Below the pieces are notes generated by a model. The model had not been told where the DNA came from. It searched no databases and saw only the letters and a program-made list of their open reading frames with translations. 64,000 nucleotides of DNA from Phalacrocorax aristotelis. Taxonomy: Eukaryota; Chordata; Aves; Suliformes; Phalacrocoracidae. Location: positions 1-64,000 of the forward strand of contig NW_027441199.1 of the NCBI RefSeq assembly GCF_949628215.1, written 5' to 3'. Below, piece by piece: positions 22,759 through 64,000 of the stretch; position 1 is the stretch's first letter; the number at the start of each line of letters is the position of its first letter. Both the position numbers and the translations under genes were made by a program.

Positions 22759-23619
22759 GCAGGCTTAGGAACCAGGTGCTGTTACATACCAATGGCAAAA
22801 ACTATTTCAGTATGATATTGAGGGCAAAAAAGAAGTAACAGGCAAAACTTCAGGGTTCATCTTCTAAAAAAGTTACCAGATTTGGGAACGTTGTGCTTTT
22901 AACGTTCCTTAACTGGTGGTGATTGCTGCAAAATTTGTGAAGAATGCAGACGTCTTCTCAAAATATTTCTCAGCTACAGGCTTTACTGGAATTTTGTAGA
23001 TAATCACTTTTGGATTTTTATGAATACTTCTTGGTGTACGTTGAGGTGAAAGATGGGTATGGTCAGAGGACAAGTAAAGGTTTGGATTTTATAGGTACTT
23101 GTACACACAGAAATAATATTACTGTGTATTAAAATACATTTTAAAATTATGTAATGAGTATATGAACCATACGTTTAGGAAATACATACAGTTTTTATAT
23201 ATGTGTACTGTGTTTATACTTTAGTGCTACACAAAAGAAACGTTGTAGTCAGATCTTATGATGTTCCTCACATCTGCTTTTTTTTTTTCTGTATAACTTA
23301 CAAATTATGCCAGTCTGAGTATTTTATTTATTTGGTGTGGACTTTTTTTCTGAGAAAAGGATCTAGTCTCAGTCTTATCTGTTCACCAAAGCTATCTCCA
23401 CTGTAGATTAAATTTCTTAGCATCTGTTCCACCTGTTGTTTTTCTTCTCATGCAAACCGTGGTGAAAAATGGTACCCAAAAGGCTCTAGTGCTTCCAAAC
23501 AGTTACTTGGTTGCTTGTGTAATGTACCTTTAGTCCCAGCTCAAGTAATGACGCTACCACTAATACCTCTTTCACGATGAAAGTGTGTTGATTCCAAACC
23601 CTTGGGCAGGACAGAGGGA

Positions 23620-23730
23620 GGTTGCCTTCTTGGGCCAATGATGAGTGCTGGCATGTATTATCTGATCTAAAGTCGATGTCTGTCACCACTTCAGCTCTAG
23701 AATTACTCTGAGACACAGGAAACTCCAGTT
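23620..23730 (+). repeat. Low-copy direct repeat, copy 2
   Basis: Related to 21635-21745: CTGGCATGTATTATCTGATC and CAGCTCTAGAATTACTCTGA. This copy is inside the palindrome arm; the other is at least 1 kb outside the visible arm. Confidence 0.65.
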
Positions 23731-24069
23731 TCCTTACACTGCACCTTGGAACTTTTCAAAACACAAATCAAATTCCTGTCACAAATTGTGCCCCCTCCTC
23801 CTTATGCTGGATTAGAATTTGAGTTTTCTTCCATTTACGCGTTAGGGAGGTACAGTTCTTAGCTTAATACTGGATGTTAATAGGAGGTGCTTTCATGTTA
23901 ACTGATTGCAGCTCTGGATACCCAAAGTTGAACAGTGTAGCAAATGCTGATAGATTTGGTGGTAAACATAACCTGCCTGTCTTAACTAGCACGCGTGTTC
24001 TTAATTCACAAATACTGTTTAGCCCCCAACTAAACATCCAGAATGTTTGAAGGGTCATGTCGTATATTC

Positions 24070-24240
24070 GTTTGATAACAATTAAGTCACATGTTCAGAT
24101 TTGCTTTTTAAGGAGAAAAAAAAAAGTATGGTGATGTATTTTTCTGTTGGGGTTGTAGGTTTCATTTTGCATTTTTGTAATTTTGTAATTATTGTAATTT
24201 TGTAATTTTAGCTGGCAGTTGTAAGATTCCAGTTAACTCT
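24070..24240 (+). repeat. Direct repeat pair, copy 1
   Basis: Contains GTTCAGATTTGCTT, GATGTATTTTTCTGTTGGGG and AGCTGGCAGTTGTAAG, in the same order as 24940-25080. Four TTTTGTAATT units (about 24170-24210) are inserted in this copy. Confidence 0.65.
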
Positions 24241-24939
24241 ACGGGTGGAAAGTTAAAGTTGCTAGCATTTTTCAGGGTTGGCCCAAGAATATTCCTTTGT
24301 TTCAGCTGTCTCTTCTGTAAGGATTTATTATCAATAACATCAATTACTGTTTTTACAGATGACATGAGTTAGGAGTAAAAACATAAAGTCAGCTGGGGCT
24401 CAAGAGCAGCACTGTTGTGTTAATATGGCGCTGTGTCACAGGGGTTTACTGGCTAAAGTCAGTGCTACCTTAGGAATCTTTGTATTCCCTACTCAGACCT
24501 TTATTTTTCCTCACTGTGCAGTTTGTCTAATCATACTGTTCATGTTTTTTTCTCTGAAGTTACTGCAATTATATTTTATTCATTATGTTTAAAAATGGAA
24601 CATAGCATAAATAAAAATCTTATCCTTTGAAACTGGTCACTGCTGGCAGGCTTTGACTGTAAGTGTTATTACTGACCAGCTGCTTAAGCTATGCCTGTGC
24701 ATATCCAAACAGTAGCAGTGCACAGACTGCAAATTTGTCAGTCCAGGGTGTTGTCATCCCATCCCAAAATTCAGCTAGAAACAAATCTCTGCTGTTGTAC
24801 GTAATGCTAACATAAAAATAAATAAGTGTGCTTATGCTGTTGAAAAGCATGTAAGAGTTCAGCTAGAGTTGTTCTTATAATGATTTGGGAACTTCTTAAT
24901 GTTTTTAGATAGCAAGAGATGAACTGCAGGGAACCGAGT

Positions 24940-25080
24940 TTTACTTAAATAAAACGTTACACGTTCAGACTTGCTTGTGTGTGTGTGTGGAGCCCAACCA
25001 AAACCAATGATGATGTATTTTCTGTTGGGGTGGTATGTTCCTTGCCTTGCAGCTGGCGTTTCCTGGCGGGATTAGATTTG
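24940..25080 (+). repeat. Direct repeat pair, copy 2
   Basis: Contains GTTCAGACTTGCTTGTG, GATGTATTTTCTGTTGGGG and CAGCTGGCGTTTCC. It is about 870 bp from copy 1, pointing to an old tandem duplication. A TG run lies at 24975-24990. Confidence 0.65.
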
Positions 25081-26743
25081 GTGTGCGTATTCACGTATTC
25101 CTTAAAATGCTGTAAATGGCAACTACTTTGCCTGCACAGCAGTTCAAAATTTTTCTGGAAATATTACATGTACCTTACAGTATTCTTGGACAGGCACATC
25201 CCTGTTGGTGTGGTGTTGGGTTTTTTTTATTTGTTTTTGTCTTTTGGGGTGTGTTTTTTGTCAGGGGAAGGTGATTATGAGCAGGCTTCAGTTGATACTG
25301 TAGTTTCCTGGAATTTGTACTTTCCTAACGACCGCCTGAAATGTGGCCAGAAGCACCATGAAAGTTATTTCCCAGGGAAAATAGCTGGATTTGCAAATGC
25401 TTGTGTATTACATGACACACTGTAAATAAACTTGGTGGTAGATGTACATGGGATTGCCGGGAATGTTAGCGATCACGGTTAACTTGTTCCTGCCAGAGGA
25501 TTCACTTGGGCTGTGGCTTGTTATCCTTAAGGCTTAGGGTAAGAGGATTATACAGGATCAAACCATAGGCTGTACACAGAATTGTCCTAAAGCCTGTATC
25601 CAGACTGCAGAAAGCAGCTTGAGTACTCTGGGTTTTTGTTTTGTTGTTGTCTTTTCTTTTTTTTTATGTTTGGGTTTTTTGTTTGGTTCATTGGTTTTTT
25701 GCTTGTGTTTTTTTTTTTTTAAAGAAAACAGTAGTGCTCTGCCTGATCTTCTAGGTGTGTTTTCCAAACTTTTTACTGTTGTAATATAAACATTACTGTC
25801 CTATAATTATATTGTGTAACTAGAACTTTTATACAAAAGCTGGAGGTGGAGAATCATAGAATCATAGGTCAGAAGGGACCTTAAAAGCCACCTAGTCCAA
25901 CCCCGCTGCAGTGAGCAGGGACATCTTCAACCAGATCAGGCTGTTCAGAGCCCAGTCCAGCATGACCTTGAATGTTTCCAGGGATGGGGCATCCACCATC
26001 TCTCTGGGCAACCAATGCCAGTGTTTCACCACCCTCATTGTAAAAAAAAAAATTTAAAAAAAAAATAAATTCTTCCTTGTACCTAGTCTAAATCTACCCT
26101 CTTTTAGTTTTAAACCTAATGGGTTAAAACCTTGTCCTATTGCAACAGGCCCTAGGAAAAAGTTTGTCCCCATCTTTCCTATAAGCCCCCTTCAAGTATT
26201 GAAAGGCTGCAGTAAGTTCTCCCGGAGCCTTCTCTTCTCCATGCTCAACAACCCCAACTGTCTCAGCCTTTCCTCACAGGAGAGGCGTTCCATCTCTCTG
26301 ATCATTTTTGTGTCGCTCCTCTGGACCCTGCTCCAACAGGTCCATGTCTTTCCCATGCTGAGGACTCCAGAGCTGGATGCAGTGCTGCAGGTGGGGTGAC
26401 GCCAGGGCAGAGTAGAGGCAGAGAATCATCTCCCTCAACCGCTGGCCATGCTTCTTTGCAGCCCAGGATATGGTAGGCTTTCTGGGCTGCGAGTGCACAC
26501 TGCTGGCTCATGTCCAATTTTTCATCCACCAGTATCCCCCAGTCCTTCTCTGCAGGGCTCCTCTCAATCCCTTCATCCACCAGCCTGTACTGATACAGGG
26601 GTTGCCCTGACCCAGGTTCACATGGGCCCACTTTTCAAGCTTGTCCGGGTCCATCTGGATGGCATCCTGTCTCTCAGGCATGTCAACTGTATCACTCCTC
26701 TTGGTGTTGTCTGCAAACCTCCTGAGGCTGCACTTGATCCCAC

Positions 26744-27302
26744 TGTTCTCCGAAAAGCAGATTCGTCGCCCAGTGTGCAATGAGTCAATAATCACACTCT
26801 CAGGAGAGACGTTGCGAATTTATTTCAGGGTTGCGCAAGCCTGGGTGCTCGGTGGTTTTCCACAAATCGCACACACTGAAGCTGGCTACCTCTTTGTATT
26901 TATACAGTAAGTCCATACATATTCTGCCTATCCAAATACATATTCTAATCTACACAGGTTGCGTAGTGGCATTAAGTCACTCCTCTCTGCTCTGCTTCAG
27001 ATCCTTCTGCGTGTGCCTTCCTCTCTTTGGGGGTCTCGGTGGGCTTTACGGATGAAGTACCCTAACCCATTTTACCCATATATGATTGCATGTTATGCAA
27101 GGACAATTTAAGGCTATGTTCTCTTGCCAACTTTCCATGATTTTCTTCTAAAAGGAACACTTGTCCTTGATTAAATGGACAATTGCTGATGGCCAAGATA
27201 TCCCCGGCCCTAAGCTTAGCTTAAATATTTAAGGAGCCTAGATTCATGCTAATTAAACATATACAATACCTGCTTTTTCCAAGGAGGGGTTGTTCTCTTA
27301 CA
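26744..27302 (-). mobile_element. Solo LTR in CR1 (left arm)
   Basis: Mirror copy of 59457-60015. Sense ends are TGTAAGAGAACAACCC and CTTTTCGGAGAACA. It has a TATAAATA box and an AATAAA signal before the 3' end. The CR1 reading (FTNNIGSG then IKCSLRRFADN) resumes across it. Confidence 0.8.
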
Positions 27303-27512
27303 GTCACCACTGCCTATGTTGTTGGTGAAGATACTAAACAGTACTGGTCCCAATATGGGCCCCTGAGGGACACCATTCATCACAGATCTCCATCTGGACA
27401 TTGAGCCATTGACTGCTACCCTCTGAATGCGACCATCCAACCAATTCCTCATCCACTGAGCAGTCCATCCAATCCATATCTCTCCAGTTTAGAGAGAAGG
27501 ATGTTGTGGGGG

Positions 27513-28086
27513 TGTCCTGATCCAACATTGGGAAGAGGTTTGATATGAACACAAGAGCAAGGTTAAGATGCAAATGAGGTCAAATGCCATATGCCCTAAA
27601 ACACTTTTATTTAAAAAATAATGATAACATTGATAGGACGGAACAGAACAAAAGGCAGAAATCAAGCAAGCATTTGGGGTAGAGTTGCAAGCATAGTCAC
27701 CACCATGGGTCTGACAGCATCCGCTGATCTGTAGCCTGTAACCTCAGTGGTGGGGGTCCTCCCACCGTTCAGTGGCGCAGTCCACCACTCCATAGGGCAT
27801 TCACGGATGTTGTTTCTGCATGTACTGCATTCCCACACGAGCTCCCAGTCCCAGCGTGCTGGTCTCATGGAGTGCATGCGGTTGTCATGCGATCCTGCGC
27901 ATGCTCCCAGAATGTGGGGGGGTATGTGCCTGTGCCTCGGCACATTCCCCAAAGGGACGTGCCTGTTCACTGACCTCTGTTCACTTCCACGACAACAGCC
28001 TTGCGGTCGTATTTAGCAGCCAGAGGGGTTTCCTGCTCAAACAAGCAGTCCTTTGAGACAAATGTTCCACGGTCCAGTCTCCCACA
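27513..28086 (-). mobile_element. Solo LTR in CR1 (left arm), 5-bp target duplication
   Basis: Mirror copy of 58673-59246. Sense ends are TGTGGGAGACTGGACC and GTTGGATCAGGACA, flanked by CCCCC on each side (GGGGG on the plus strand here). It splits the CR1 words for DTVP and HNILLSKL-like residues. A poly(A) signal AATAAA lies near its 3' part. Confidence 0.85.
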
Positions 28087-28889
28087 GGGGGACCGTGTCA
28101 GAGGCCTTACAGAAGTACAGATGGATGACATCTGTAGCTCTTCCCTTGTCCACTGATGTAGTCACTCCATCACAGAAGGCCGTCAGGTTGGTCAGGCAAG
28201 ACTTGCCCTTGGTGAAGCCGTGCTGTGTTGAATCACCTCCCTGTCACCTTCCTGACCCCATCCCAACGCAACTGGGCAGTGTTCCCATAACCTTCCCAGG
28301 ATACCTGTCCCTGCTTCCACTGCCTGTGCATTTCCTTCTTGCCCTTTAGTTTGACCAGCATGTCTCAGCTCATCCATGCCAGTCTCTTGCCTTCCTTTCC
28401 TGATTTCTTGCACCTGGGGACTGAGAGCTCTTGTGCTCTATGGAAAGCATCCTTAAAGATCTGCCAGCTCTGTTCTGCTCCCTTGTCCCTGACGGCAGTG
28501 TCCCAGGGAGCTCTATTGACTAACTCTTTGAACAGCTGGAATTTTGCTTTCCTACAATTCAGGGTCCTGACTTTACTGTTCACCTGATCCATATCCCTTA
28601 GGACTGTGAACTCCACCAGAGTGTGATCACTACAGCCCAGGCTGCTTCCAGTCTTGACATCACCAATTAGCTCACTTGCATTGATGACCAACAAGTCCAG
28701 TATTGCATTCCCTCTGGTAGGGCTGTCTATTACCACCTGGCTTATAAAGTTTATCCTCAATGTACTCTAGGAGTCTCCTGGATTGCCTACAGCTTGCCAT
28801 GCTGCTTTTCCAGCAGACGTCGGGGTGGTTGACGTCAGGGTCCCAGCAGGATGTTTCAGCATCGTGCAAGATGTTTGGAGCGGGAACCA

Positions 28890-29608
28890 ACGGGAAGTAT
28901 CTAGGGGGTTCAGGGAGGAAGAAGTAGGGGGAAAAAGAGGGCTAAAAAGGGTCTGTCACACAAAAATAGCTTGCTGGTTAATCATGCCATGCCCTGGGCG
29001 TGACCAGCACAGTCTGTCTTGCCTGCCCTTCCTAACGAGGACAGCACCTGGAGCCAGCCCGTAGGTCATGGGGTCCATGGGGCGGTGACTGGGGAGACTG
29101 GAGCAAGGGAAACCACATAGGAGAAGGTCCAGAGGCTCCCCTGGGCTGTCGGATCTGGCCTGATGCTCCCCTGGTACCCACCAGCACCACCTCAGTACTG
29201 GATAGGCCAGAGGCAAGTGCATGATCTTGGGTATTATGAGGTCACTTCTACAGGATATGGGGGTTGCTGTGCCACGGTGAAACCACGGGTGTGTGCCCCA
29301 CCCCAGGCCTGACCTTGTGGACCCCAGGTCCTCTGGGCTACAGCACCGCAGCCCCTGGTGGTGTTGTGACATCATTTGTCCTGCTACCCAACTGCTGATA
29401 ACCTCACAGTTCCCAACACCCCTGAGGCTATGACAGTATTGCCTCTGCTGCCCTCATCACTACGACATCACAGCCCCCAGTACCCTGCCTCATGAGGACT
29501 GGGGAGTTAACAGTTATGCAGCTGCAATTCCAAGCACTGCCACCTCTGACATCACTGCCCCAGGCCCTGCATCGCTATGACATCACACTTCACACACTTC
29601 ACACCACC
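28890..29608. other. Unassigned DNA between CR1 and MVP 3' end (left arm)
   Basis: GC-moderate, with scattered short repeats of the type TGACATCAC(A/T) near 29,360-29,590. No gene recognised. Mirror of 57151-57869. Confidence 0.4.
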
Positions 29609-29851
29609 ACTGCCACCTGCTTGCTTTATTGTGCTGGTTATGACTGCTGTGGATGCTGGGGGAGGGGGGAGCCTGGATGCCTGGGTCGTCAGAGGGTGGA
29701 GCTCTGGGGGGGTTGGAGCTTTCTGGGGAAGGGCTAGCCCCTGGGCAATGGTGAAGAGATTGCGGGGGGGGGGGGGGGGGGGGGGCGGGAGGCGGTGCCA
29801 TTGCTTTGTGATGAGGGTGGACTGCAGCCCCAGGACCTGCTGCAGCTTCAC
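29609..29851 (-). pseudogene. MVP: MVP last exon (left arm)
   Basis: Major vault protein builds the shell of cytoplasmic vault particles. After the acceptor (ACTCCCAG in sense) the exon reads VKLQQVLGLQSTLITKQWHR, then NLFTIAQGLALPQ, matching human VKLLQSLGLKSTLI and INLFNTAFGLLGM. Between the two blocks a run of 22 C (sense) encodes a proline tract and keeps the frame. AATAAA lies at about 29625-29630. The exons that normally link this to the preceding shoulder-domain exon are absent, so I call a gene remnant. Mirror of 56908-57150. Confidence 0.85.
29764..29785 (+). repeat. Poly-G run of 22 in the MVP exon (left arm)
   Basis: Twenty-two uninterrupted G, flanked by TTGC and CGGGAGG. The right arm has exactly 22 C at the mirror site, whereas the spacer copy has only seven at 44756-44762. 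Confidence 0.9.
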
Positions 29852-30066
29852 CTGGGAGTGGCCATGGTGCGGGTTGTGCCTCCTGGCTGGCCACACCCCC
29901 TCAGACACCCCACCACACCCACCCACACCACCTTGATTCACAGTCCCACCAGGAGAGGCTCCACCCGCTTGAAGACTGGCCCCTGTCAGCAGGAAGGACC
30001 CCGGTACTTGTGGGCAGGCAGAGGACCTGCATGCCCTGGGCAGTGTGTGCTGGGAAGCTGGCTGAC

Positions 30067-30183
30067 CTGAGGGCCTTGAGCTCTAGCGGCTCTCTGCGCA
30101 CCTGCTCGGCCTCTGCCTGGTTCAGGAGGTGATGCTGCTCCAGGTGGCCCAGGGCCTCCTGTGCCAGGTGCGCTGCCTCATGC
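30067..30183 (-). pseudogene. MVP: MVP shoulder-domain exon (left arm)
   Basis: A 117-bp exon with acceptor CCAGTCCCCAG and donor GTCAGC in sense. Reads HEAAHLAQEALGHLEQHHLL, then NQAEAEQVRREPLELKAL, aligning with human MVP [38 protein letters not shown]. The frame is open. The following long-helix exons of MVP are missing before the last exon at 29851. Confidence 0.9.
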
Positions 30184-30403
30184 CTGGGGACTGGCACCGA
30201 GAGGTGGGGAGCCACGGAGGACACAGGAGACTTGGGGGATGTTGAGGGCGTGGGGAGGCACCACGGATGTGCGGCAGGTTGGGGACATGGGGAGGGGAAG
30301 CTAGGCATGTTGAGAATATGTGGGATGTAGGGAGCATGGGGCAATGTAGGTGGATGTGGTTGGCGTGGGGGGTGTGATGGATATGGGGGTGACATAGCGT
30401 ATC

Positions 30404-30744
30404 GGTCTCTACAACTACCTGAAAGGAGGCTGTAGTGAGGTGGGTGCTGGTCTCTTCTCCCAAGTAACCAGCGATAGGACGAGAAGAAATGGCTTAATGT
30501 TGCGTCAAGGGAGGTTTAGATTGGGTAGCGGGGAAAAATTTGTTTACCGAAAGAGCGGTCAGGCATTGGAACAGGCTGCCCCTGCCCAGGGAGGTGGTGG
30601 AATCACCATCCCGGGAGGTGTTCAGAAAACATGTAGACGTGGCACTTTGGGACATGGTTTAGGAGGCATGGTGGGGTTGGGTTGGTGGTTGGACTTGATG
30701 ATCTTAGACGCCTTCTCCAACCTTAATGATTCCATGATTCTATG
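30404..30744 (+). mobile_element. CR1 LINE 3' end (left arm)
   Basis: Starts abruptly at GGTCTCTACAACTACCTGAA, covers the last ORF2 residues ([18 protein letters not shown] in one frame) and ends TTCCATGATTCTATGG. It lies directly upstream (in plus coordinates) of unassigned DNA before the small secreted-protein gene. Two bases (30496 A, 30521 T) differ from both the right arm and the spacer copy. Confidence 0.92.
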
Positions 30745-31284
30745 GTTGAAAGCCAGCTGGGATGCCAGGGTTCCTCTCAAGTCTTGCCACGGGATGCTGG
30801 GCTCCTGCCCAAACTGCCACGGGACAGTTCAGGGGTGAACCATGGGGTAGCTTACGGAAGAATGAGGAAGTCGAATTTGTACTGCAGGGTGAAAATAACC
30901 AATGATTTGAGTTGTATGATGGCAGTATGCTGCTGTGGCTGCCACGTGTCAAAGGTATTACAGCAGGAACACCTTGCTGGTAGCGAGGCAAGGGGAGGCG
31001 TTCATTGCAATGTTAAACCCTATGGCCAAAGGGACCGGGGCAGAGATTGTAATGGATATAACTTTAATTGCTGTAACCCATGATTTGAGTTGCCTGTTAT
31101 AGGAAGTGCTACAGCAGAAATGGACTGCACGTGCTGGATTTCATCCGGGTCTTTGGAAGCGCCCGGCCTCTCTCAGCCACTCTGCTCATTGCGGTGGTGC
31201 GGCCAGAGAGAACCCAGGCATCCGTGCGCTGGCAGAGGAGAGGGAACATGGACACGGGGGGACACACACACATGCAGAGCGTAG
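30745..31284. other. Unassigned DNA with an internal repeat (left arm)
   Basis: Two related blocks, AACCAATGATTTGAGTTGTA (near 30898) and AACCCATGATTTGAGTTGCC (near 31076), about 178 bp apart, may be an old tandem duplication. No gene recognised. Mirror of 55476-56014. Confidence 0.45.
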
Positions 31285-31298
31285 CTTTAACGAAGCGG

Positions 31299-31304
31299 TT
31301 TATT
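31299..31304 (-). terminator. Poly(A) signal of the small secreted-protein gene (left arm)
   Basis: AATAAA on the minus strand (TTTATT on plus), about 600 bp beyond the stop codon. A T/G-rich stretch (TGTGTGTGTC in sense) follows within about 40 bases, as expected for a cleavage site. Confidence 0.7.
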
Positions 31305-31905
31305 GATCATGAGAGGGTAAGGGTCCAGGGCTCCCAGGGGATCAGGTGGGGTCATCCAGGGATGATCATCTCCTCCTGCTGCTGGAGGGGGACAGGACAC
31401 GGGTGTCACCGCCAGCTCCAGTCCTGAAAGAGAGAGCCCAAAATATGGCCCCCAGTGTCCGCTGGGACATGAGAGGGGCCTTGCCCCCATCGTCTCTGCA
31501 GAGACCTAGGGAAGGAGAAGGGAACTGCAGCCCTCAATATACTCAGGACAGGACTTGGCTCTCCTGAGATCCGTATGGCACCCAGAGCCCCTTGCCCCCT
31601 GTGTCATTACCCTGGGATGCCCCTAAATCTTGCAGAGCCCTGCCCAGCCCTCACTGTGATCCTGGAGGTCTGTATGGCACCTGTATGCCTGGCCTGCACG
31701 GTGACCCTCTGGGTCTGTAGAGCCCCACTGAGTGCAAGGAAAGGCATGGGGCCAGCTGTGTCCAGCTCACCCTGGGACGTGGATTCTGGACAGTTCCCTC
31801 TGTTTCCCTCTCCCACGCCCAAGTGCTGCTCACCCCTGAGGACTCAAGGGGTCCTCCAGGGCCCAGAATCCTTTGTGGGGCTCAAGGTGCCCTGATGCTG
31901 CTCAC

Positions 31906-34013
31906 CTAGACCCTAAGGAGGTGGTGGGCCAAATGTCTGTACGGGATATAGTCCGCCGTCTCAGGTGGAGAGAGCTGCGGAGGAAAGGAGGGTTAGGGAC
32001 GTTCTTGGGAGCACTGGGGTGTACTGGGAGGCAGGGGAAAGCAATGGGGTCCTTGGGGAGGATGCTGCCGGGGAAAAATGGGGTACATGATTTTCTATGG
32101 TGGTGCACAGAAAGCAGCAGGGCTCCTGGGGAAGGGGGCCTCCCTGGGAGAACACTGGGGTGCAGGGTGTTCGCTGGAGTTGCAGTGGGGTGCAGTGGGG
32201 TGTACTGGGGCACACTGGAGTGTTGTGGCCATGGGAGGGGGTGCGGGTCTGGGGCCAGCAGAACTCGTGGTACCTACCTCATCCCTCTTCTCTCGCTCGA
32301 TAATGAGTCCCCCCTGTAGAGAGACCATGAGATGTCACTGGGATGTCCCCAGACCCAGCAAGGGATGAGAGGACTATATTGCCCCCCCAGTTCCCCCAGC
32401 CTGATGCCCTCCAAGTCCACGCCACTACTTACCCCTGCGCAATGACCTCCGCTTGCTTCTAATAATGCCTAGGGAAAAAAGAGCAAGGGGGTGGTCTGGA
32501 TTGGACCTTGGTGGGGCTGTGGGTGGGGCACAGGTGTCCCCAGTCCCATGGCTTCCTCCTGGTGTGAGCAGGGAAAATACCTTCTGCTCCCCCCAGCCCC
32601 ATTCCTCCAAGTTTCACCTGGGATACCTGCTCATGCAAGGACCAGGGATGGGGATGGAGACAAGGATAGCGTGGGGAATTCAGGGCCTCCAAAGAGGATG
32701 GGGGTGGGGGGGACCCAGAGACAGGGCACTGGCGTGAATTAGCAGACCCCAAGGGACTGGGCTGGGGGTGTTGAAGGGACAGGACTGCATGGGATGCGAG
32801 TGAGGGAATTCAAATGGAGAGGATACGGGGACTTTGGGTGCGGTGGTTGGCGGGGGCAGAAGGAAGAGGACTGCAGAGGGCCAAAACGAGGGGATTGGGA
32901 GAGTGTTTGGGAGTGGGGGTTCAAGGAAGGGGCCTCTGCCCCAGTGGACAGGATGAAAGGAAAAGGACTGAGGGGAAAGATGGAAAGAAAGGCATTGGGA
33001 ACGATTGAAGGGAGGGCATTTGAGGACCCTGGACAGGACACGGCAGAGACCCTGGGGAGGAGATGCCTGAGGGGACCAAAAGGATGGGATGGGGAGGCCA
33101 AAAAGGGAGGCATGTGGGGGCACCAAGACAAGAAACCGGTGGGGGCCCTCACAGGAGTTTGCAGTGGACCCTCCCAGGGAGGAGAGAGGTCTGACCATCC
33201 AGTGAGGAACTGTCGTGGTTTAGCCGGCAGCTCAGCCCCACACAGTCGCTCGCTCACTCCCCCACCGGTCGATGGGGGAGAGAATCAGAAGGGTAACGCT
33301 CGTGGGTTGGGATAAGAACAGTTTAATAATTAAAATTGAAAGAAACAACAGCGGAAATGCAACGTAAAGGAGAACAACAAGAGGCGCAAAACCCCGGGGG
33401 GGGGGGGAGGGGAACGAAATGCCGAAACAAACCGCACGCGACGCAGCCGCTCACCGCCCGCTGACCCGACGCTGCGCCGCTCCCAAGCCGCAGACTGCCC
33501 CCCCTTCATATACTGGTCATGGTGTCACATGGTATGGAATGAACATGCCATTGGCCAGTCGGGGTCAGCCGCCCCCACCATGGCCCTGCCCCTCCCAGCC
33601 CCCCGCCATGCTGCGGGAAGCTGGAAAGGTAGCCGACCCCCCACGGTGAGGAGAATTAACCCCTTCTCAGCCAAAACCAGCACAGGAACCCATTCTCTAG
33701 GCACCAGAGGCTTAACTGCAAGGGAAGCGGAGGGAACAGATGGAATTGTGGGAGGGAGAAAGCTGCATTGCGCAGGGCTGGAGGTGCAGGGCAGCCTGGA
33801 GGAGCCCCTGGCTTGGGAAAGGGAGCGGCCAAGTCAAGGGGTTTTGTGCTCACCACTACAAATTTAATTCTGCAGGAAAGCTGATGTCCTACAGCCAAGG
33901 CCCATCCCAAGCCTTGAGCCCTCCCTGTGGCATTGGGGACTCACCTGAGCATCTTCCAGGGTGCACAGCAGGATGGTGAAGAGCAGGGCCACGCTGAGCA
34001 CTGTGACCTTCAT
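31906..34013 (-). CDS. Small secreted prohormone-like protein, four coding exons (left arm copy)
   Basis: Exons 33945-34013, 32433-32468, 32278-32313 and 31906-31974. All introns are phase 0 with GT/AG ends. The 69-residue product begins MKVTVLSVALLFTILLCTLE (signal peptide, about 23 residues), then has a 22-residue acidic/Gly segment with one Cys ending in R-E-K-R, a furin-type site, and a 24-residue C-terminal peptide beginning DELSPPETADYIPYR. I do not recognise the family. The layout (signal exon, short second exon, furin site, short C-terminal part) recalls osteocalcin/MGP genes, but the disulphide Cys pair and Gla motif are absent. The stop TAG is followed at once by a GTGAGC donor, so an untranslated last exon is possible. 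The coding exons are identical to the right-arm copy. An LTR sits in intron 1. Confidence 0.65.
33211..33684 (-). mobile_element. Solo LTR (B subtype) in intron 1 of the small gene (left arm)
   Basis: Starts TGTCGTGGTTTAGCCGGCAG and ends CAGCCAAAACCAGCACA, with a perfect GGAAC duplication on both sides (33206-33210 and 33685-33689). Its sense strand is the same as that of the host gene. It holds the 12-base G run that differs in length from the right arm. Confidence 0.93.
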
Positions 34014-34041
34014 CTTCCCCTGCGGTGTGGCAAGTCGAGGG

Positions 34042-34116
34042 TGAAGCTGGAGAAAGTGAGGGGCAGATTTATCCCTCCCAGAACTCCTCCTTACCCCGCC
34101 CCGCCCCCCCCCCGGA
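34042..34116 (-). promoter_or_regulatory. Promoter of the small secreted-protein gene (left arm)
   Basis: In sense: a GGGGCGGGGCGGGG GC-box array, then GGGATAAATCTGCC (TATA-like ATAAAT) about 55-60 bases before the ATG at 34013. This leaves a short 5' leader of about 30 bases. Mirror of 52641-52715. Confidence 0.6.
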
Positions 34117-36018: not shown

Positions 36019-36568
36019 TGTCCTGGTTTCAGCTGGAATAGAGTTAGTTTTCCTCCAAGCAGCTGGTATATTGTTGTGTTTTGGATTTAGCATGAGAATA
36101 ATGTTGATAACACACTGAAGTTTTAGTTGTTGCTAAGTAGCGTTTACACTAAGTCAAGGACTTTTCAGCTTCCCATGCTCTGCCAGGTGCACAAGAAGCT
36201 GGGAGGGAGTACAGGCCAGGACAGCTGACCCAAACCAGCCAAAGGGATATTCCACACCATATGATGTCATGCTCAGTATGTAAGCTGAAGGGGGAGTTGG
36301 CTGGGGGCAGTGACTGCTGCTCAGGGACTAGCTGGGTGTTGGTCAGCAGGTAGTGAGCAGTTGCATTGTGCATCACTTGCTTTGTATACTCTGTTTGTTT
36401 TTTACTTTATTTCAGTTATTAAACTGTTCTTGTCTCACCCCATGAGTTTTCTCACTTTTGCTCTTCCTGTTATCTTCCCCAACCCACCAGGGCCAGGGGT
36501 GGGGGGGTGGGAAAGCGAGCGAGCGGCTGTGTGGTGCTTAGTTGCTGGCTGGGGTAAAAGTAACCACA
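36019..36568 (+). mobile_element. Solo LTR (A subtype) (left arm)
   Basis: Starts TGTCCTGGTTTCAGCTGGAA; includes GATGTCATGCTCAGTATGTA (decayed CRE/TATA region), ATTAAACTGTTCTTGTCTC, and ends near GGGGTAAAAGTAACCACA. The 3' end is diverged, so the target duplication is not clear. Mirror of 50188-50737. Confidence 0.85.
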
Positions 36569-50187: not shown

Positions 50188-50737
50188 TGTGGTTACTTTT
50201 ACCCCAGCCAGCAACTAAGCACCACACAGCCGCTCGCTCGCTTTCCCACCCCCCCACCCCTGGCCCTGGTGGGTTGGGGAAGATAACAGGAAGAGCAAAA
50301 GTGAGAAAACTCATGGGGTGAGACAAGAACAGTTTAATAACTGAAATAAAGTAAAAAACAAACAGAGTATACAAAGCAAGTGATGCACAATGCAACTGCT
50401 CACTACCTGCTGACCAACACCCAGCTAGTCCCTGAGCAGCAGTCACTGCCCCCAGCCAACTCCCCCTTCAGCTTACATACTGAGCATGACATCATATGGT
50501 GTGGAATATCCCTTTGGCTGGTTTGGGTCAGCTGTCCTGGCCTGTACTCCCTCCCAGCTTCTTGTGCACCTGGCAGAGCATGGGAAGCTGAAAAGTCCTT
50601 GACTTAGTGTAAACGCTACTTAGCAACAACTAAAACTTCAGTGTGTTATCAACATTATTCTCATGCTAAATCCAAAACACAACAATATACCAGCTGCTTG
50701 GAGGAAAACTAACTCTATTCCAGCTGAAACCAGGACA
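50188..50737 (-). mobile_element. Solo LTR (A subtype) (right arm)
   Basis: Mirror of 36019-36568. It ends CAGCTGAAACCAGGACA on the plus strand at 50737. Confidence 0.85.
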
Positions 50738-52640: not shown

Positions 52641-52715
52641 CCGGGGGGGGGGGCGGGGCGGGGTAAGGAGGAGTTCTGGGAGGGATAAATCTGCCCCTCA
52701 CTTTCTCCAGCTTCA
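52641..52715 (+). promoter_or_regulatory. Promoter of the small secreted-protein gene (right arm)
   Basis: An 11-G run followed by CGGGGCGGGG (GC boxes, about 52643-52665), then AGGGATAAATCTGCCCC with ATAAAT at 52685-52690. A start about 25-30 bases later would give a leader of about 30 bases before the ATG at 52744. The left arm has one G fewer in the run. Confidence 0.6.
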
Positions 52716-52743
52716 CCCTCGACTTGCCACACCGCAGGGGAAG

Positions 52744-54853: not shown

Positions 54854-55454
54854 GTGAGCAGCATCAGGGCACCTTGAGCCCCACAAAGGATTCTGGGCCC
54901 TGGAGGACCCCTTGAGTCCTCAGGGGTGAGCAGCACTTGGGCGTGGGAGAGGGAAACAGAGGGAACTGTCCAGAATCCACGTCCCAGGGTGAGCTGGACA
55001 CAGCTGGCCCCATGCCTTTCCTTGCACTCAGTGGGGCTCTACAGACCCAGAGGGTCACCGTGCAGGCCAGGCATACAGGTGCCATACAGACCTCCAGGAT
55101 CACAGTGAGGGCTGGGCAGGGCTCTGCAAGATTTAGGGGCATCCCAGGGTAATGACACAGGGGGCAAGGGGCTCTGGGTGCCATACGGATCTCAGGAGAG
55201 CCAAGTCCTGTCCTGAGTATATTGAGGGCTGCAGTTCCCTTCTCCTTCCCTAGGTCTCTGCAGAGACGATGGGGGCAAGGCCCCTCTCATGTCCCAGCGG
55301 ACACTGGGGGCCATATTTTGGGCTCTCTCTTTCAGGACTGGAGCTGGCGGTGACACCCGTGTCCTGTCCCCCTCCAGCAGCAGGAGGAGATGATCATCCC
55401 TGGATGACCCCACCTGATCCCCTGGGAGCCCTGGACCCTTACCCTCTCATGATC

Positions 55455-55460
55455 AATAAA
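55455..55460 (+). terminator. Poly(A) signal of the small secreted-protein gene (right arm)
   Basis: AATAAA in GATCAATAAACCGC, followed by GCATGTGTGTGTGTCC, a TG-rich downstream element. Possible acceptors TCCTTCCCTAG (55253) and CTCTCTTTCAG (55335) could create an untranslated last exon with the donor at 54854. Confidence 0.7.
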
Positions 55461-55475
55461 CCGCTTCGTTAAAGC

Positions 55476-56014
55476 TACGCTCTGCATGTGTGTGTGTCCC
55501 CCCGTGTCCATGTTCCCTCTCCTCTGCCAGCGCACGGATGCCTGGGTTCTCTCTGGCCGCACCACCGCAATGAGCAGAGTGGCTGAGAGAGGCCGGGCGC
55601 TTCCAAAGACCCGGATGAAATCCAGCACGTGCAGTCCATTTCTGCTGTAGCACTTCCTATAACAGGCAACTCAAATCATGGGTTACAGCAATTAAAGTTA
55701 TATCCATTACAATCTCTGCCCCGGTCCCTTTGGCCATAGGGTTTAACATTGCAATGAACGCCTCCCCTTGCCTCGCTACCAGCAAGGTGTTCCTGCTGTA
55801 ATACCTTTGACACGTGGCAGCCACAGCAGCATACTGCCATCATACAACTCAAATCATTGGTTATTTTCACCCTGCAGTACAAATTCGACTTCCTCATTCT
55901 TCCGTAAGCTACCCCATGGTTCACCCCTGAACTGTCCCGTGGCAGTTTGGGCAGGAGCCCAGCATCCCGTGGCAAGACTTGAGAGGAACCCTGGCATCCC
56001 AGCTGGCTTTCAAC
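55476..56014. other. Unassigned DNA with an internal repeat (right arm)
   Basis: Mirror of 30745-31284. Confidence 0.45.
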
Positions 56015-56355
56015 CATAGAATCATGGAATCATTAAGGTTGGAGAAGGCGTCTAAGATCATCAAGTCCAACCACCAACCCAACCCCACCATGCCTCCTAA
56101 ACCATGTCCCAAAGTGCCACGTCTACATGTTTTCTGAACACCTCCCGGGATGGTGATTCCACCACCTCCCTGGGCAGGGGCAGCCTGTTCCAATGCCTGA
56201 CCGCTCTTTCGGTAAACAAATTTTTCCCCGCTACCCAGTCTAAACCTCCCTTGACGCAACATGAAGCCATTTCTTCTCGTCCTATCGCTGGTTACTTGGG
56301 AGAAGAGACCAGCACCCACCTCACTACAGCCTCCTTTCAGGTAGTTGTAGAGACC
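56015..56355 (-). mobile_element. CR1 LINE 3' end (right arm)
   Basis: Mirror of 30404-30744. At 56238 and 56263 it carries the bases shared with the spacer copy, so the left arm has the derived bases at both sites. Confidence 0.92.
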
Positions 56356-56575
56356 GATACGCTATGTCACCCCCATATCCATCACACCCCCCACGCCAAC
56401 CACATCCACCTACATTGCCCCATGCTCCCTACATCCCACATATTCTCAACATGCCTAGCTTCCCCTCCCCATGTCCCCAACCTGCCGCACATCCGTGGTG
56501 CCTCCCCACGCCCTCAACATCCCCCAAGTCTCCTGTGTCCTCCGTGGCTCCCCACCTCTCGGTGCCAGTCCCCAG

Positions 56576-56692
56576 GCATGAGGCAGCGCACCTGGCACAG
56601 GAGGCCCTGGGCCACCTGGAGCAGCATCACCTCCTGAACCAGGCAGAGGCCGAGCAGGTGCGCAGAGAGCCGCTAGAGCTCAAGGCCCTCAG
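56576..56692 (+). pseudogene. MVP: MVP shoulder-domain exon (right arm)
   Basis: Mirror of 30067-30183: HEAAHLAQEALGHLEQHHLL exon, 117 bp, with intact splice sites. The preceding MVP exon is found only in the spacer (42723-42922). Confidence 0.9.
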
Positions 56693-56907
56693 GTCAGCCA
56701 GCTTCCCAGCACACACTGCCCAGGGCATGCAGGTCCTCTGCCTGCCCACAAGTACCGGGGTCCTTCCTGCTGACAGGGGCCAGTCTTCAAGCGGGTGGAG
56801 CCTCTCCTGGTGGGACTGTGAATCAAGGTGGTGTGGGTGGGTGTGGTGGGGTGTCTGAGGGGGTGTGGCCAGCCAGGAGGCACAACCCGCACCATGGCCA
56901 CTCCCAG

Positions 56908-57150
56908 GTGAAGCTGCAGCAGGTCCTGGGGCTGCAGTCCACCCTCATCACAAAGCAATGGCACCGCCTCCCGCCCCCCCCCCCCCCCCCCCCCCGCAAT
57001 CTCTTCACCATTGCCCAGGGGCTAGCCCTTCCCCAGAAAGCTCCAACCCCCCCAGAGCTCCACCCTCTGACGACCCAGGCATCCAGGCTCCCCCCTCCCC
57101 CAGCATCCACAGCAGTCATAACCAGCACAATAAAGCAAGCAGGTGGCAGT
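56908..57150 (+). pseudogene. MVP: MVP last exon (right arm)
   Basis: Mirror of 29609-29851: VKLQQVLGLQSTLITKQWHR, a proline tract from 22 C at 56974-56995, then NLFTIAQGLALPQ. Poly(A) signal AATAAA at 57129-57134. The coding frame runs through the poly(A) signal without a stop, another sign of decay. Confidence 0.85.
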
Positions 57151-57869
57151 GGTGGTGTGAAGTGTGTGAAGTGTGATGTCATAGCGATGCAGGGCCTGGG
57201 GCAGTGATGTCAGAGGTGGCAGTGCTTGGAATTGCAGCTGCATAACTGTTAACTCCCCAGTCCTCATGAGGCAGGGTACTGGGGGCTGTGATGTCGTAGT
57301 GATGAGGGCAGCAGAGGCAATACTGTCATAGCCTCAGGGGTGTTGGGAACTGTGAGGTTATCAGCAGTTGGGTAGCAGGACAAATGATGTCACAACACCA
57401 CCAGGGGCTGCGGTGCTGTAGCCCAGAGGACCTGGGGTCCACAAGGTCAGGCCTGGGGTGGGGCACACACCCGTGGTTTCACCGTGGCACAGCAACCCCC
57501 ATATCCTGTAGAAGTGACCTCATAATACCCAAGATCATGCACTTGCCTCTGGCCTATCCAGTACTGAGGTGGTGCTGGTGGGTACCAGGGGAGCATCAGG
57601 CCAGATCCGACAGCCCAGGGGAGCCTCTGGACCTTCTCCTATGTGGTTTCCCTTGCTCCAGTCTCCCCAGTCACCGCCCCATGGACCCCATGACCTACGG
57701 GCTGGCTCCAGGTGCTGTCCTCGTTAGGAAGGGCAGGCAAGACAGACTGTGCTGGTCACGCCCAGGGCATGGCATGATTAACCAGCAAGCTATTTTTGTG
57801 TGACAGACCCTTTTTAGCCCTCTTTTTCCCCCTACTTCTTCCTCCCTGAACCCCCTAGATACTTCCCGT
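57151..57869. other. Unassigned DNA (right arm)
   Basis: Mirror of 28890-29608. No gene recognised. Confidence 0.4.
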
Positions 57870-58672
57870 TGGTTCCCGCTCCAAACATCTTGCACGATGC
57901 TGAAACATCCTGCTGGGACCCTGACGTCAACCACCCCGACGTCTGCTGGAAAAGCAGCATGGCAAGCTGTAGGCAATCCAGGAGACTCCTAGAGTACATT
58001 GAGGATAAACTTTATAAGCCAGGTGGTAATAGACAGCCCTACCAGAGGGAATGCAATACTGGACTTGTTGGTCATCAATGCAAGTGAGCTAATTGGTGAT
58101 GTCAAGACTGGAAGCAGCCTGGGCTGTAGTGATCACACTCTGGTGGAGTTCACAGTTCTAAGGGATATGGATCAGGTGAACAGTAAAGTCAGGACCCTGA
58201 ATTGTAGGAAAGCAAAATTCCAGCTGTTCAAAGAGTTAGTCAATAGAGCTCCCTGGGACACTGCCGTCAGGGACAAGGGAGCAGAACAGAGCTGGCAGAT
58301 CTTTAAGGATGCTTTCCATAGAGCACAAGAGCTCTCAGTCCCCAGGTGCAAGAAATCAGGAAAGGAAGGCAAGAGACTGGCATGGATGAGCTGAGACATG
58401 CTGGTCAAACTAAAGGGCAAGAAGGAAATGCACAGGCAGTGGAAGCAGGGACAGGTATCCTGGGAAGGTTATGGGAACACTGCCCAGTTGCGTTGGGATG
58501 GGGTCAGGAAGGTGACAGGGAGGTGATTCAACACAGCACGGCTTCACCAAGGGCAAGTCTTGCCTGACCAACCTGACGGCCTTCTGTGATGGAGTGACTA
58601 CATCAGTGGACAAGGGAAGAGCTACAGATGTCATCCATCTGTACTTCTGTAAGGCCTCTGACACGGTCCCCC

Positions 58673-59246
58673 TGTGGGAGACTGGACCGTGGAACATTTG
58701 TCTCAAAGGACTGCTTGTTTGAGCAGGAAACCCCTCTGGCTGCTAAATACGACCGCAAGGCTGTTGTCGTGGAAGTGAACAGAGGTCAGTGAACAGGCAC
58801 GTCCCTTTGGGGAATGTGCCGAGGCACAGGCACATACCCCCCCACATTCTGGGAGCATGCGCAGGATCGCATGACAACCGCATGCACTCCATGAGACCAG
58901 CACGCTGGGACTGGGAGCTCGTGTGGGAATGCAGTACATGCAGAAACAACATCCGTGAATGCCCTATGGAGTGGTGGACTGCGCCACTGAACGGTGGGAG
59001 GACCCCCACCACTGAGGTTACAGGCTACAGATCAGCGGATGCTGTCAGACCCATGGTGGTGACTATGCTTGCAACTCTACCCCAAATGCTTGCTTGATTT
59101 CTGCCTTTTGTTCTGTTCCGTCCTATCAATGTTATCATTATTTTTTAAATAAAAGTGTTTTAGGGCATATGGCATTTGACCTCATTTGCATCTTAACCTT
59201 GCTCTTGTGTTCATATCAAACCTCTTCCCAATGTTGGATCAGGACA
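58673..59246 (+). mobile_element. Solo LTR in CR1 (right arm)
   Basis: TGTGGGAGACTGGACC to GTTGGATCAGGACA, with CCCCC on both sides (58668-58672 and 59247-59251), i.e. a 5-bp duplication of the CR1 word GTCCCCCACAAC. AATAAA lies at about 59147-59152. Confidence 0.88.
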
Positions 59247-59456
59247 CCCCCACAACATCCTTCTCTCTAAACTGGAGAGATATGGATTGGATGGACTGCT
59301 CAGTGGATGAGGAATTGGTTGGATGGTCGCATTCAGAGGGTAGCAGTCAATGGCTCAATGTCCAGATGGAGATCTGTGATGAATGGTGTCCCTCAGGGGC
59401 CCATATTGGGACCAGTACTGTTTAGTATCTTCACCAACAACATAGGCAGTGGTGAC

Positions 59457-60015
59457 TGTAAGAGAACAACCCCTCCTTGGAAAAAGCAGGTATTGTATAT
59501 GTTTAATTAGCATGAATCTAGGCTCCTTAAATATTTAAGCTAAGCTTAGGGCCGGGGATATCTTGGCCATCAGCAATTGTCCATTTAATCAAGGACAAGT
59601 GTTCCTTTTAGAAGAAAATCATGGAAAGTTGGCAAGAGAACATAGCCTTAAATTGTCCTTGCATAACATGCAATCATATATGGGTAAAATGGGTTAGGGT
59701 ACTTCATCCGTAAAGCCCACCGAGACCCCCAAAGAGAGGAAGGCACACGCAGAAGGATCTGAAGCAGAGCAGAGAGGAGTGACTTAATGCCACTACGCAA
59801 CCTGTGTAGATTAGAATATGTATTTGGATAGGCAGAATATGTATGGACTTACTGTATAAATACAAAGAGGTAGCCAGCTTCAGTGTGTGCGATTTGTGGA
59901 AAACCACCGAGCACCCAGGCTTGCGCAACCCTGAAATAAATTCGCAACGTCTCTCCTGAGAGTGTGATTATTGACTCATTGCACACTGGGCGACGAATCT
60001 GCTTTTCGGAGAACA
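59457..60015 (+). mobile_element. Solo LTR in CR1, different family (right arm)
   Basis: TGTAAGAGAACAACCC to CTTTTCGGAGAACA. TATAAATA lies near 59853 and AATAAA near 59935. Flanks GTGGTGAC and GTGGGATC are similar but not identical. The family is unlike the CRE/TATA LTRs of the window. Confidence 0.8.
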
Positions 60016-60909
60016 GTGGGATCAAGTGCAGCCTCAGGAGGTTTGCAGACAACACCAAGAGGAGTGATACAGTTGACATGCCTGAGAGACAGGATGCCAT
60101 CCAGATGGACCCGGACAAGCTTGAAAAGTGGGCCCATGTGAACCTGGGTCAGGGCAACCCCTGTATCAGTACAGGCTGGTGGATGAAGGGATTGAGAGGA
60201 GCCCTGCAGAGAAGGACTGGGGGATACTGGTGGATGAAAAATTGGACATGAGCCAGCAGTGTGCACTCGCAGCCCAGAAAGCCTACCATATCCTGGGCTG
60301 CAAAGAAGCATGGCCAGCGGTTGAGGGAGATGATTCTCTGCCTCTACTCTGCCCTGGCGTCACCCCACCTGCAGCACTGCATCCAGCTCTGGAGTCCTCA
60401 GCATGGGAAAGACATGGACCTGTTGGAGCAGGGTCCAGAGGAGCGACACAAAAATGATCAGAGAGATGGAACGCCTCTCCTGTGAGGAAAGGCTGAGACA
60501 GTTGGGGTTGTTGAGCATGGAGAAGAGAAGGCTCCGGGAGAACTTACTGCAGCCTTTCAATACTTGAAGGGGGCTTATAGGAAAGATGGGGACAAACTTT
60601 TTCCTAGGGCCTGTTGCAATAGGACAAGGTTTTAACCCATTAGGTTTAAAACTAAAAGAGGGTAGATTTAGACTAGGTACAAGGAAGAATTTATTTTTTT
60701 TTTAAATTTTTTTTTTTACAATGAGGGTGGTGAAACACTGGCATTGGTTGCCCAGAGAGATGGTGGATGCCCCATCCCTGGAAACATTCAAGGTCATGCT
60801 GGACTGGGCTCTGAACAGCCTGATCTGGTTGAAGATGTCCCTGCTCACTGCAGCGGGGTTGGACTAGGTGGCTTTTAAGGTCCCTTCTGACCTATGATTC
60901 TATGATTCT

Positions 60910-63900
60910 CCACCTCCAGCTTTTGTATAAAAGTTCTAGTTACACAATATAATTATAGGACAGTAATGTTTATATTACAACAGTAAAAAGTTTGGAAAAC
61001 ACACCTAGAAGATCAGGCAGAGCACTACTGTTTTCTTTAAAAAAAAAAAAACACAAGCAAAAAACCAATGAACCAAACAAAAAACCCAAACATAAAAAAA
61101 AAGAAAAGACAACAACAAAACAAAAACCCAGAGTACTCAAGCTGCTTTCTGCAGTCTGGATACAGGCTTTAGGACAATTCTGTGTACAGCCTATGGTTTG
61201 ATCCTGTATAATCCTCTTACCCTAAGCCTTAAGGATAACAAGCCACAGCCCAAGTGAATCCTCTGGCAGGAACAAGTTAACCGTGATCGCTAACATTCCC
61301 GGCAATCCCATGTACATCTACCACCAAGTTTATTTACAGTGTGTCATGTAATACACAAGCATTTGCAAATCCAGCTATTTTCCCTGGGAAATAACTTTCA
61401 TGGTGCTTCTGGCCACATTTCAGGCGGTCGTTAGGAAAGTACAAATTCCAGGAAACTACAGTATCAACTGAAGCCTGCTCATAATCACCTTCCCCTGACA
61501 AAAAACACACCCCAAAAGACAAAAACAAATAAAAAAAACCCAACACCACACCAACAGGGATGTGCCTGTCCAAGAATACTGTAAGGTACATGTAATATTT
61601 CCAGAAAAATTTTGAACTGCTGTGCAGGCAAAGTAGTTGCCATTTACAGCATTTTAAGGAATACGTGAATACGCACACCAAATCTAATCCCGCCAGGAAA
61701 CGCCAGCTGCAAGGCAAGGAGCATACCACCCCAACAGAAAATACATCATCATTGGTTTTGGTTGGGCTCCACACACACACACAAGCAAGTCTGAACGTGT
61801 AACGTTTTATTTAAGTAAAACTCGGTTCCCTGCAGTTCATCTCTTGCTATCTAAAAACATTAAGAAGTTCCCAAATCATTATAAGAACAACTCTAGCTGA
61901 ACTCTTACATGCTTTTCAACAGCATAAGCACACTTATTTATTTTTATGTTAGCATTACGTACAACAGCAGAGATTTGTTTCTAGCTGAATTTTGGGATGG
62001 GATGACAACACCCTGGACTGACAAATTTGCAGTCTGTGCACTGCTACTGTTTGGATATGCACAGGCATAGCTTAAGCAGCTGGTCAGTAATAACACTTAC
62101 AGTCAAAGCCTGCCAGCAGTGACCAGTTTCAAAGGATAAGATTTTTATTTATGCTATGTTCCATTTTTAAACATAATGAATAAAATATAATTGCAGTAAC
62201 TTCAGAGAAAAAAACATGAACAGTATGATTAGACAAACTGCACAGTGAGGAAAAATAAAGGTCTGAGTAGGGAATACAAAGATTCCTAAGGTAGCACTGA
62301 CTTTAGCCAGTAAACCCCTGTGACACAGCGCCATATTAACACAACAGTGCTGCTCTTGAGCCCCAGCTGACTTTATGTTTTTACTCCTAACTCATGTCAT
62401 CTGTAAAAACAGTAATTGATGTTATTGATAATAAATCCTTACAGAAGAGACAGCTGAAACAAAGGAATATTCTTGGGCCAACCCTGAAAAATGCTAGCAA
62501 CTTTAACTTTCCACCCGTAGAGTTAACTGGAATCTTACAACTGCCAGCTAAAATTACAAAATTACAATAATTACAAAATTACAAAAATGCAAAATGAAAC
62601 CTACAACCCCAACAGAAAAATACATCACCATACTTTTTTTTTTCTCCTTAAAAAGCAAATCTGAACATGTGACTTAATTGTTATCAAACGAATATACGAC
62701 ATGACCCTTCAAACATTCTGGATGTTTAGTTGGGGGCTAAACAGTATTTGTGAATTAAGAACACGCGTGCTAGTTAAGACAGGCAGGTTATGTTTACCAC
62801 CAAATCTATCAGCATTTGCTACACTGTTCAACTTTGGGTATCCAGAGCTGCAATCAGTTAACGTGAAAGCACCTCCTATTAACATCCAGTATTAAGCTAA
62901 GAACTGTACCTCCCTAACGCGTAAATGGAAGAAAACTCAAATTCTAATCCAGCATAAGGAGGAGGGGGCACAATTTGTGACAGGAATTTGATTTGTGTTT
63001 TGAAAAGTTCCAAGGTGCAGTGTAAGGAAACTGGAGTTTCCTGTGTCTCAGAGTAATTCTAGAGCTGAAGTGGTGACAGACATCGACTTTAGATCAGATA
63101 ATACATGCCAGCACTCATCATTGGCCCAAGAAGGCAACCTCCCTCTGTCCTGCCCAAGGGTTTGGAATCAACACACTTTCATCGTGAAAGAGGTATTAGT
63201 GGTAGCGTCATTACTTGAGCTGGGACTAAAGGTACATTACACAAGCAACCAAGTAACTGTTTGGAAGCACTAGAGCCTTTTGGGTACCATTTTTCACCAC
63301 GGTTTGCATGAGAAGAAAAACAACAGGTGGAACAGATGCTAAGAAATTTAATCTACAGTGGAGATAGCTTTGGTGAACAGATAAGACTGAGACTAGATCC
63401 TTTTCTCAGAAAAAAAGTCCACACCAAATAAATAAAATACTCAGACTGGCATAATTTGTAAGTTATACAGAAAAAAAAAAAGCAGATGTGAGGAACATCA
63501 TAAGATCTGACTACAACGTTTCTTTTGTGTAGCACTAAAGTATAAACACAGTACACATATATAAAAACTGTATGTATTTCCTAAACGTATGGTTCATATA
63601 CTCATTACATAATTTTAAAATGTATTTTAATACACAGTAATATTATTTCTGTGTGTACAAGTACCTATAAAATCCAAACCTTTACTTGTCCTCTGACCAT
63701 ACCCATCTTTCACCTCAACGTACACCAAGAAGTATTCATAAAAATCCAAAAGTGATTATCTACAAAATTCCAGTAAAGCCTGTAGCTGAGAAATATTTTG
63801 AGAAGACGTCTGCATTCTTCACAAATTTTGCAGCAATCACCACCAGTTAAGGAACGTTAAAAGCACAACGTTCCCAAATCTGGTAACTTTTTTAGAAGAT

Positions 63901-64000
63901 GAACCCTGAAGTTTTGCCTGTTACTTCTTTTTTGCCCTCAATATCATACTGAAATAGTTTTTGCCATTGGTATGTAACAGCACCTGGTTCCTAAGCCTGC
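60910..64000. other. Outer right-arm DNA without genes
   Basis: Mirror of 22759-25849. It includes the mirror copies of the direct-repeat pair (about 61680-61820 and 62520-62690) and the one visible substitution at 62863. Confidence 0.4.

Follow-up and report, generated by a model that had tools for sequence, protein, structure and literature searches.

A very long inverted repeat whose arms hardly differ raises the questions of how it arose, what makes its arms so alike and what, if anything, is preserved in them. Such a repeat occupies the first 64,000 bases (hereafter the window) of contig NW_027441199.1 of Phalacrocorax aristotelis, an 89,000-base contig (C144) of the RefSeq assembly GCF_949628215.1, which comprises 1.279 Gb in 352 contigs. 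The explanation preferred here, with about as much doubt as confidence, is that C144 is a genuine inverted duplication and a diverged member of a palindromic small nucleolar RNA (snoRNA) amplicon family, whose arms would be subject to gene conversion.

The structure itself is confirmed. In a self-alignment of the window, 22759-41035 pairs with the reverse-complemented 45721-64000 across 18,280 columns at 99.945% identity, with seven substitutions and three gap bases, the latter confined to two homopolymer tracts. The original prediction, which was made on the window only, had described a near-perfect palindrome with identity well above 99.9%, arms of at least 18.3 kb with an outer end beyond the window and a spacer of 4.7 kb, and base-by-base alignment agrees with it on all these points; its tally for the parts that it compared was five substitutions and two homopolymer differences, of which the two homopolymer tracts stand and the substitutions rise to seven in the full window. 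Position 22759 appears as the start of the left arm simply because its partner leaves the window there. In the whole contig, bases 1-41035 match 86759-45721 over 41,039 columns at 99.946%; 18 substitutions (13 transitions and 5 transversions) are distributed along the arms, and three homopolymer tracts account for 4 gap bases. The left arm (1-41035, forward strand) thus starts at the first base of C144, which puts the arms at 41.0 kb or more, with their outer end unseen, while the right arm (45721-64000, reverse strand) is truncated by the window edge and runs on to C144:86759. Between them lies a spacer of 4685 bases (41036-45720), and with only 2241 bases beyond the right arm, the contig is nearly all palindrome. 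Large inverted arms of more than 99% identity around a non-duplicated spacer are a mark of giant palindromes of the Y or W type, and C144 has them; chance is excluded as the source of an inverted repeat of such length and identity.

C144 is also not alone in the genome. A search with a 1-kb arm piece returned its two places in C144, 18 near-full-length matches on contig C21 and one on C68 (78-79%), a shorter match on C25 (78%) and a locus on C6 (68%), the further matches being about 80 bases long. On C21 the copies make up 18 arrayed units, among which lie five palindrome centres, all within the first 0.82 Mb of this 8.9-Mb contig. Full alignment covered the first of these five palindromes (C21 bases 1-90000), where the arms, at 23138-52981 and 60240-90000, align piecewise at 99.3%, and where a direct repeat of 24.3 kb has an identity of 98.6-99.6%. 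The inner arm segment 34860-38963 (+) recurs at 80-87% at five centres on C21 (near 56, 293, 489, 627 and 791 kb, as located with the arm piece 34800-38960) and at one on C68, each of its blocks being found once, on opposite sides of the centre. This asymmetric arrangement is alike at all six places, with the centre near 489 kb reversed relative to the other four on C21. Among nine C21 copies of a 4-kb block, any two are 3-23 bases apart, compared with 884-892 bases between these copies and the C144 arms. Two smaller pieces of the same kind may be mentioned here: C68, with 52.9 kb, appears to be another part of the C21-type array, and C25:195001-205000 holds a 5.8-kb amplicon piece about 97% identical to C21, with one copy of the snoRNA SNORD45.

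The origin of part of the arm can be traced to a segment with two protein-coding genes. Positions 7089-25630 (+) are collinear, in opposite orientation and with gaps, with C6:38.656-38.679 Mb, a segment that carries ACADM (medium-chain acyl-CoA dehydrogenase, identified from an exon peptide at E 4e-36) and RABGGTB (geranylgeranyl transferase type-2 beta, likewise, at E 1e-15); identity is about 68-84% and extends through the introns. Eight exon queries, three from the later part of ACADM and five from RABGGTB, gave five matches in C144 (three ACADM, two RABGGTB), and the three further RABGGTB exons among them had no true match there. The ACADM remnant spans 12292-14803 (+) with exons at 12292-12405, 13601-13708 and 14585-14803, one of which lacks a base and another its splice donor, while the exon at 13601-13708 has no lesion within itself. 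The two-exon RABGGTB remnant (21379-22690, +) has a stop in its first exon and a frame shift in its second. None of the differences between the arms falls within these exons, hence both arms carry identical lesions. Gene copies kept alive are thus not what is seen here as far as proteins are concerned: the ACADM and RABGGTB copies are damaged, in the exons examined, in either arm, no intact protein gene was recognised in the part of the arm examined, and preservation of genes in the human manner is not what is found. A CpG-rich stretch upstream of the RABGGTB remnant (19600-20500, strand not assigned; GC 0.62, observed/expected CpG 0.74) may be the remnant of a promoter; the CpG islands upstream of the remnant gene in the two C21 units checked have GC 0.74 and a ratio of 0.92-0.93, and the corresponding stretch on C6 has GC 0.60 and 0.87.

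What has been retained inside the dead RABGGTB copy is SNORD45, the sole Rfam family above cut-off in the window (RF00279, gathering score 42). With 68 candidates scored genome-wide, so that all counts are lower bounds, at least 44 matches exceed the cut-off: 36 on C21, four on C144, two on C68, one on C25 and one in the RABGGTB gene on C6. On C21, at least 36 copies lie in 18 units, two per unit, which makes it an array of many near-identical copies. In C144, copy 1 is at 21646-21727 (+, 43.3 bits) in the left arm and, outside the window, at C144:65032-65113 in the right arm (Rfam match); copy 2 is at 23633-23717 (+) and 63042-63126 (-), both with 52.4 bits. The C21 copies score higher (62.6-66.2 for second and 57.1-63.3 for first copies), as does the copy on C6 (64.2). 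The boxes and both guides were present in all five second copies checked (three on C21, two on C144). The snoRNAs have also diverged less than their surroundings. In the comparison of C144 with C21, differences are found at 19 of 167 snoRNA sites and at 592 of 2924 flanking sites (Fisher p 0.0037). For C21 and C6 the corresponding counts are 23 of 168 and 944 of 2967 (p 1.8e-7), a difference that partly reflects constraint in the parent line. On the C21 branch, nine snoRNA changes compare with 19.2 expected (p 0.008). These p values ignore local variation in rate. A separate observation concerns the parental gene on C6, where the second SNORD45 place is degenerate, whereas the array copies keep a SNORD45 there.

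Whether the arms are alike due to conversion or to youth is best judged from sequence that C144 and C21 share. In two such blocks, of about 2.0 kb and 0.8 kb, no base differs between the C144 arms, and 3 and 1 bases, respectively, differ between the C21 arms; arms within a palindrome thus differ by 0-0.15%, compared with 13.3% and 10.8-10.9% between C144 and C21. Every site at which the four arms split two against two groups them by contig (263 of 263 and 84 of 84, together 347 of 347), in a comparison with a paralogous palindrome for which a common origin is likely. In a third block, from RABGGTB and with five sequences, the C144 arms go together at 659 of 659 such sites. For ten of the 18 arm substitutions in C144, a comparison was possible with C21 or C6, in several cases a loose one, and changes appear to have occurred on both arms. 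If the C144 and C21 palindromes descend from one ancestral palindrome, this pattern is concerted evolution, and intrachromosomal gene conversion would most likely be what has kept the arms of each palindrome alike. Of the mechanism as first proposed, conversion between the arms fits the data as far as a palindrome with like arms is concerned, while a placement on the W chromosome is unsupported.

The most serious alternative, although we consider it rather unlikely, is a recent inverted duplication: the C144 palindrome would be young, those on C21 would have formed separately and no gene conversion would be needed. In its favour, the 18 substitutions between the arms are scattered over their length, and C144 and C21 are 11-19% apart in their shared blocks. 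A third point in its favour comes from the spacer. An element common to the C144 and C21 spacers was considered as proof of a single palindrome origin and rejected, since 43202-44496 (+) is a dispersed repeat, with 37 other places at 80-83% among the matches listed (the best 40 of 17,757 candidates were scored) and a C21 match that reaches just 67.6%. The argument from a shared spacer element was accordingly withdrawn and separate recent formation stays as a rival; a single origin of the two palindromes is likely but short of proof, which counts against the explanation preferred here. Two observations speak against separate formation: the C21 centre lies within a few kilobases of the place of the C144 centre in the sequence of the family, and the unpaired inner parts of the C21 palindrome (corresponding to 34860-35767 and 35822-38963, on opposite sides) look like the remains of longer arms.

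The original prediction had pointed to vertebrate sex chromosomes, including the avian W, and a palindrome on the W whose arms convert each other there would be one explanation of such a structure. Palindromes on the duck W number 38, measure 15.2-345.5 kb and have gene copies that lack robust expression (PMC7787181), and a W palindrome of New World sparrows with signs of conversion between its arms (Davis et al. 2010) is cited in PMC3403216, PMC7692361 and PMC7787181. C144 is unplaced, which would leave room for a W location, and the spacer repeat is enriched on C35 (18 of the 37 listed places, with six on C36), an enrichment that suggests, by inference, C35 as a candidate W and C36 as a candidate Z. 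The sex-chromosome reading is nevertheless unsupported, and we regard it as improbable: the parent segment of the arm is on C6, the nearest relatives are on C21, which looks autosomal, and two pieces of the arm used as queries, of 1.0 and 4.2 kb, had no relatives on C35 beyond apparent dispersed repeats. As to C21, an open reading frame at 4.002 Mb matches metabotropic glutamate receptor 4 (E 1e-155), whose gene, GRM4, lies on a microchromosome in chicken. Four 4-kb samples of C21 (at 2, 4, 6 and 8 Mb) were compared with stretches taken from C144, C21 and C6, and three of them gave no match and one only short matches. Based on these sequence comparisons, C21 is most likely an autosomal microchromosome.

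The weakest explanation, that two haplotypes of one locus were joined head to head by the assembler, is very unlikely, for while the arm difference of 0.044% is compatible with heterozygosity and the contig measures exactly 89,000 bases (exact multiples of 1000 occur in 6 of the 25 contigs listed, all 6 among the 13 small ones and C144 being one of them), a double pass through one unitig would leave zero substitutions where 18 are seen, a 4.7-kb spacer separates the arms and, as the strongest and independent point, a related inverted layout exists at five centres on C21 and one on C68. Contig sizes in multiples of 1000 commonly result when Hi-C scaffolders break contigs automatically, so that C144 probably does not end where the natural sequence does.

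Under the preferred explanation, in which C144 is a diverged member of a gene-converted palindromic family, a DNA-level duplicate of the ACADM-RABGGTB segment would have arisen away from C6, its protein genes would have decayed and it would have become inverted-duplicated. A relative would then have been amplified on C21, most likely an autosomal microchromosome, to 18 units with five palindrome centres, and the arms of each palindrome would convert each other, so that lesions and good sequence alike become common to both arms. The intronic C/D snoRNA SNORD45 and a CpG-rich, promoter-like stretch would have been retained, best in the C21 array. Duplication, decay and multiplication can be read from the sequence, as can the structure, the relatives, the broken exons and the snoRNA copies. 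From these we infer the order of the steps, the conversion, the autosomal location and the production of snoRNA. If the family has a role, it would most likely be that of an snoRNA locus with many copies, which directs 2'-O-methylation of 18S rRNA at two sites, and C144 is proposed to be an ageing member whose SNORD45 copies are ageing with it.

In its most far-reaching form, the proposal is that a dead RABGGTB duplicate became a gene-converted palindromic snoRNA amplicon on an autosomal microchromosome, with around forty extra copies of SNORD45, in which the protein exons are broken, promoter CpG islands and rRNA guides are kept and what conversion maintains, outside a sex chromosome, is a gene for an RNA and not for a protein. 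This is put forward as a tentative possibility, and several observations weigh against it. At the level of the RNA, (i) copy 2 in C144 has lost its terminal stem, (ii) a standard C box is absent from all five first copies checked (three on C21, two on C144) and (iii) copy 1 in C144 also has one base of its D guide changed. At the level of conservation, the C144 branch taken alone is not significant (10 changes compared with 14.5 expected, p 0.14), each snoRNA by itself lies only within the lowest 10-12% of window divergences, and RABGGTB exon 2 is similarly low (24 of 172 sites, with exon 1 high at 29 of 108). The conservation test is thus a modest one.

The comparison with known systems helps to define what is unusual here. 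Human Y palindromes have inverted arms that are more than 99.9% alike, which PMC3723533 credits to gene conversion, and C144 resembles them in both orientation and identity; unlike these palindromes of a sex-limited chromosome, as there described, it has no recognised intact protein gene in the part of the arm examined. The duck and sparrow W palindromes share with C144 the large inverted arms around a spacer, and those of the duck also lack working preservation of protein genes, unlike the human type; C144 differs from them in having relatives on an autosomal-looking contig and arms that derive from ACADM-RABGGTB and carry a snoRNA. C144 is built like these W palindromes, but its relatives lie off any shown sex chromosome and its best-kept part is an RNA gene. 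Recent multi-copy arrays are familiar from birds, since PMC9974502 describes both HINT1W, with a 5648-bp tandem unit in 52 copies, and amplicons of chicken dot chromosomes; the array on C21 is of this recent multi-copy kind, and unlike the tandem HINT1W it has units of 24.3 kb that lie in both orientations and are accompanied by palindrome centres. In chicken, U45 (SNORD45) has two copies, in introns 1 and 2 of RABGGTB, which guide modification of 18S A158 and U171 (PMC2653536). The family and the host-gene introns are the same here, whereas at least 44 matches exceed the Rfam cut-off in place of the two chicken copies of that account, almost all in a dead copy of the host gene. Among the best-matching papers found in the literature search, no title concerned SNORD45 amplification in birds, and the search returned nothing joining RABGGTB with the W or with a germline-restricted chromosome and nothing on autosomal palindromes with gene-converting arms. 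In the tandem, imprinted SNORD115 and SNORD116 arrays of mammals, a non-coding host unit is repeated and holds C/D snoRNAs in many copies that are nearly identical. The C21 array likewise has many near-identical C/D snoRNAs in repeated units, but of another snoRNA family and in a palindromic rather than tandem arrangement, and its host RNA is putative.

Palindromes with arms of more than 99.9% identity are discussed mainly for the Y and W, as a substitute for crossing over. A palindrome family on a microchromosome that looks recombining, if true, would mean that such palindromes do not depend on a lack of crossing over. Should the snoRNA reading prove right as well, palindrome amplification would preserve a non-coding RNA while the host protein gene is lost, and the species would offer a natural test of the effect of extra SNORD45 on 18S rRNA methylation.

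The remaining features of the arms and the spacer are mostly minor gene calls and repeats. In a Pfam search with 10 selected open reading frames the one match was to a GDSL-like lipase, at 30.5 bits under a cut-off of 32.9; it corresponds to the open frame at 2711-3214 (+), which is probably ORF1 of a CR1-type element. A frame-wise scan for a coding gene in the arm between 31 and 36 kb found a single weak window of coding constraint. An open frame with a signal-peptide-like start is present at 33864-34226 (-) and 52084-52893 (+), and a similar one in the C21 array. Run with bacterial settings, ARAGORN predicts one tRNA-Phe per arm (40315-40382 (-) and 46374-46441 (+)), and these calls are probably false because Rfam at gathering score reports none there. 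Some further pieces of the arms are presumably CR1. At the right edge of the spacer, a 1-kb repeat (44707-45720, +) is 97% identical to 29713-30745 and 56014-57046 in the arms. It is a composite of about 690 bases and a terminal part that we take to be CR1-like; its flanks are unrelated among its three places, and the end of the spacer copy abuts the start of the right arm exactly.

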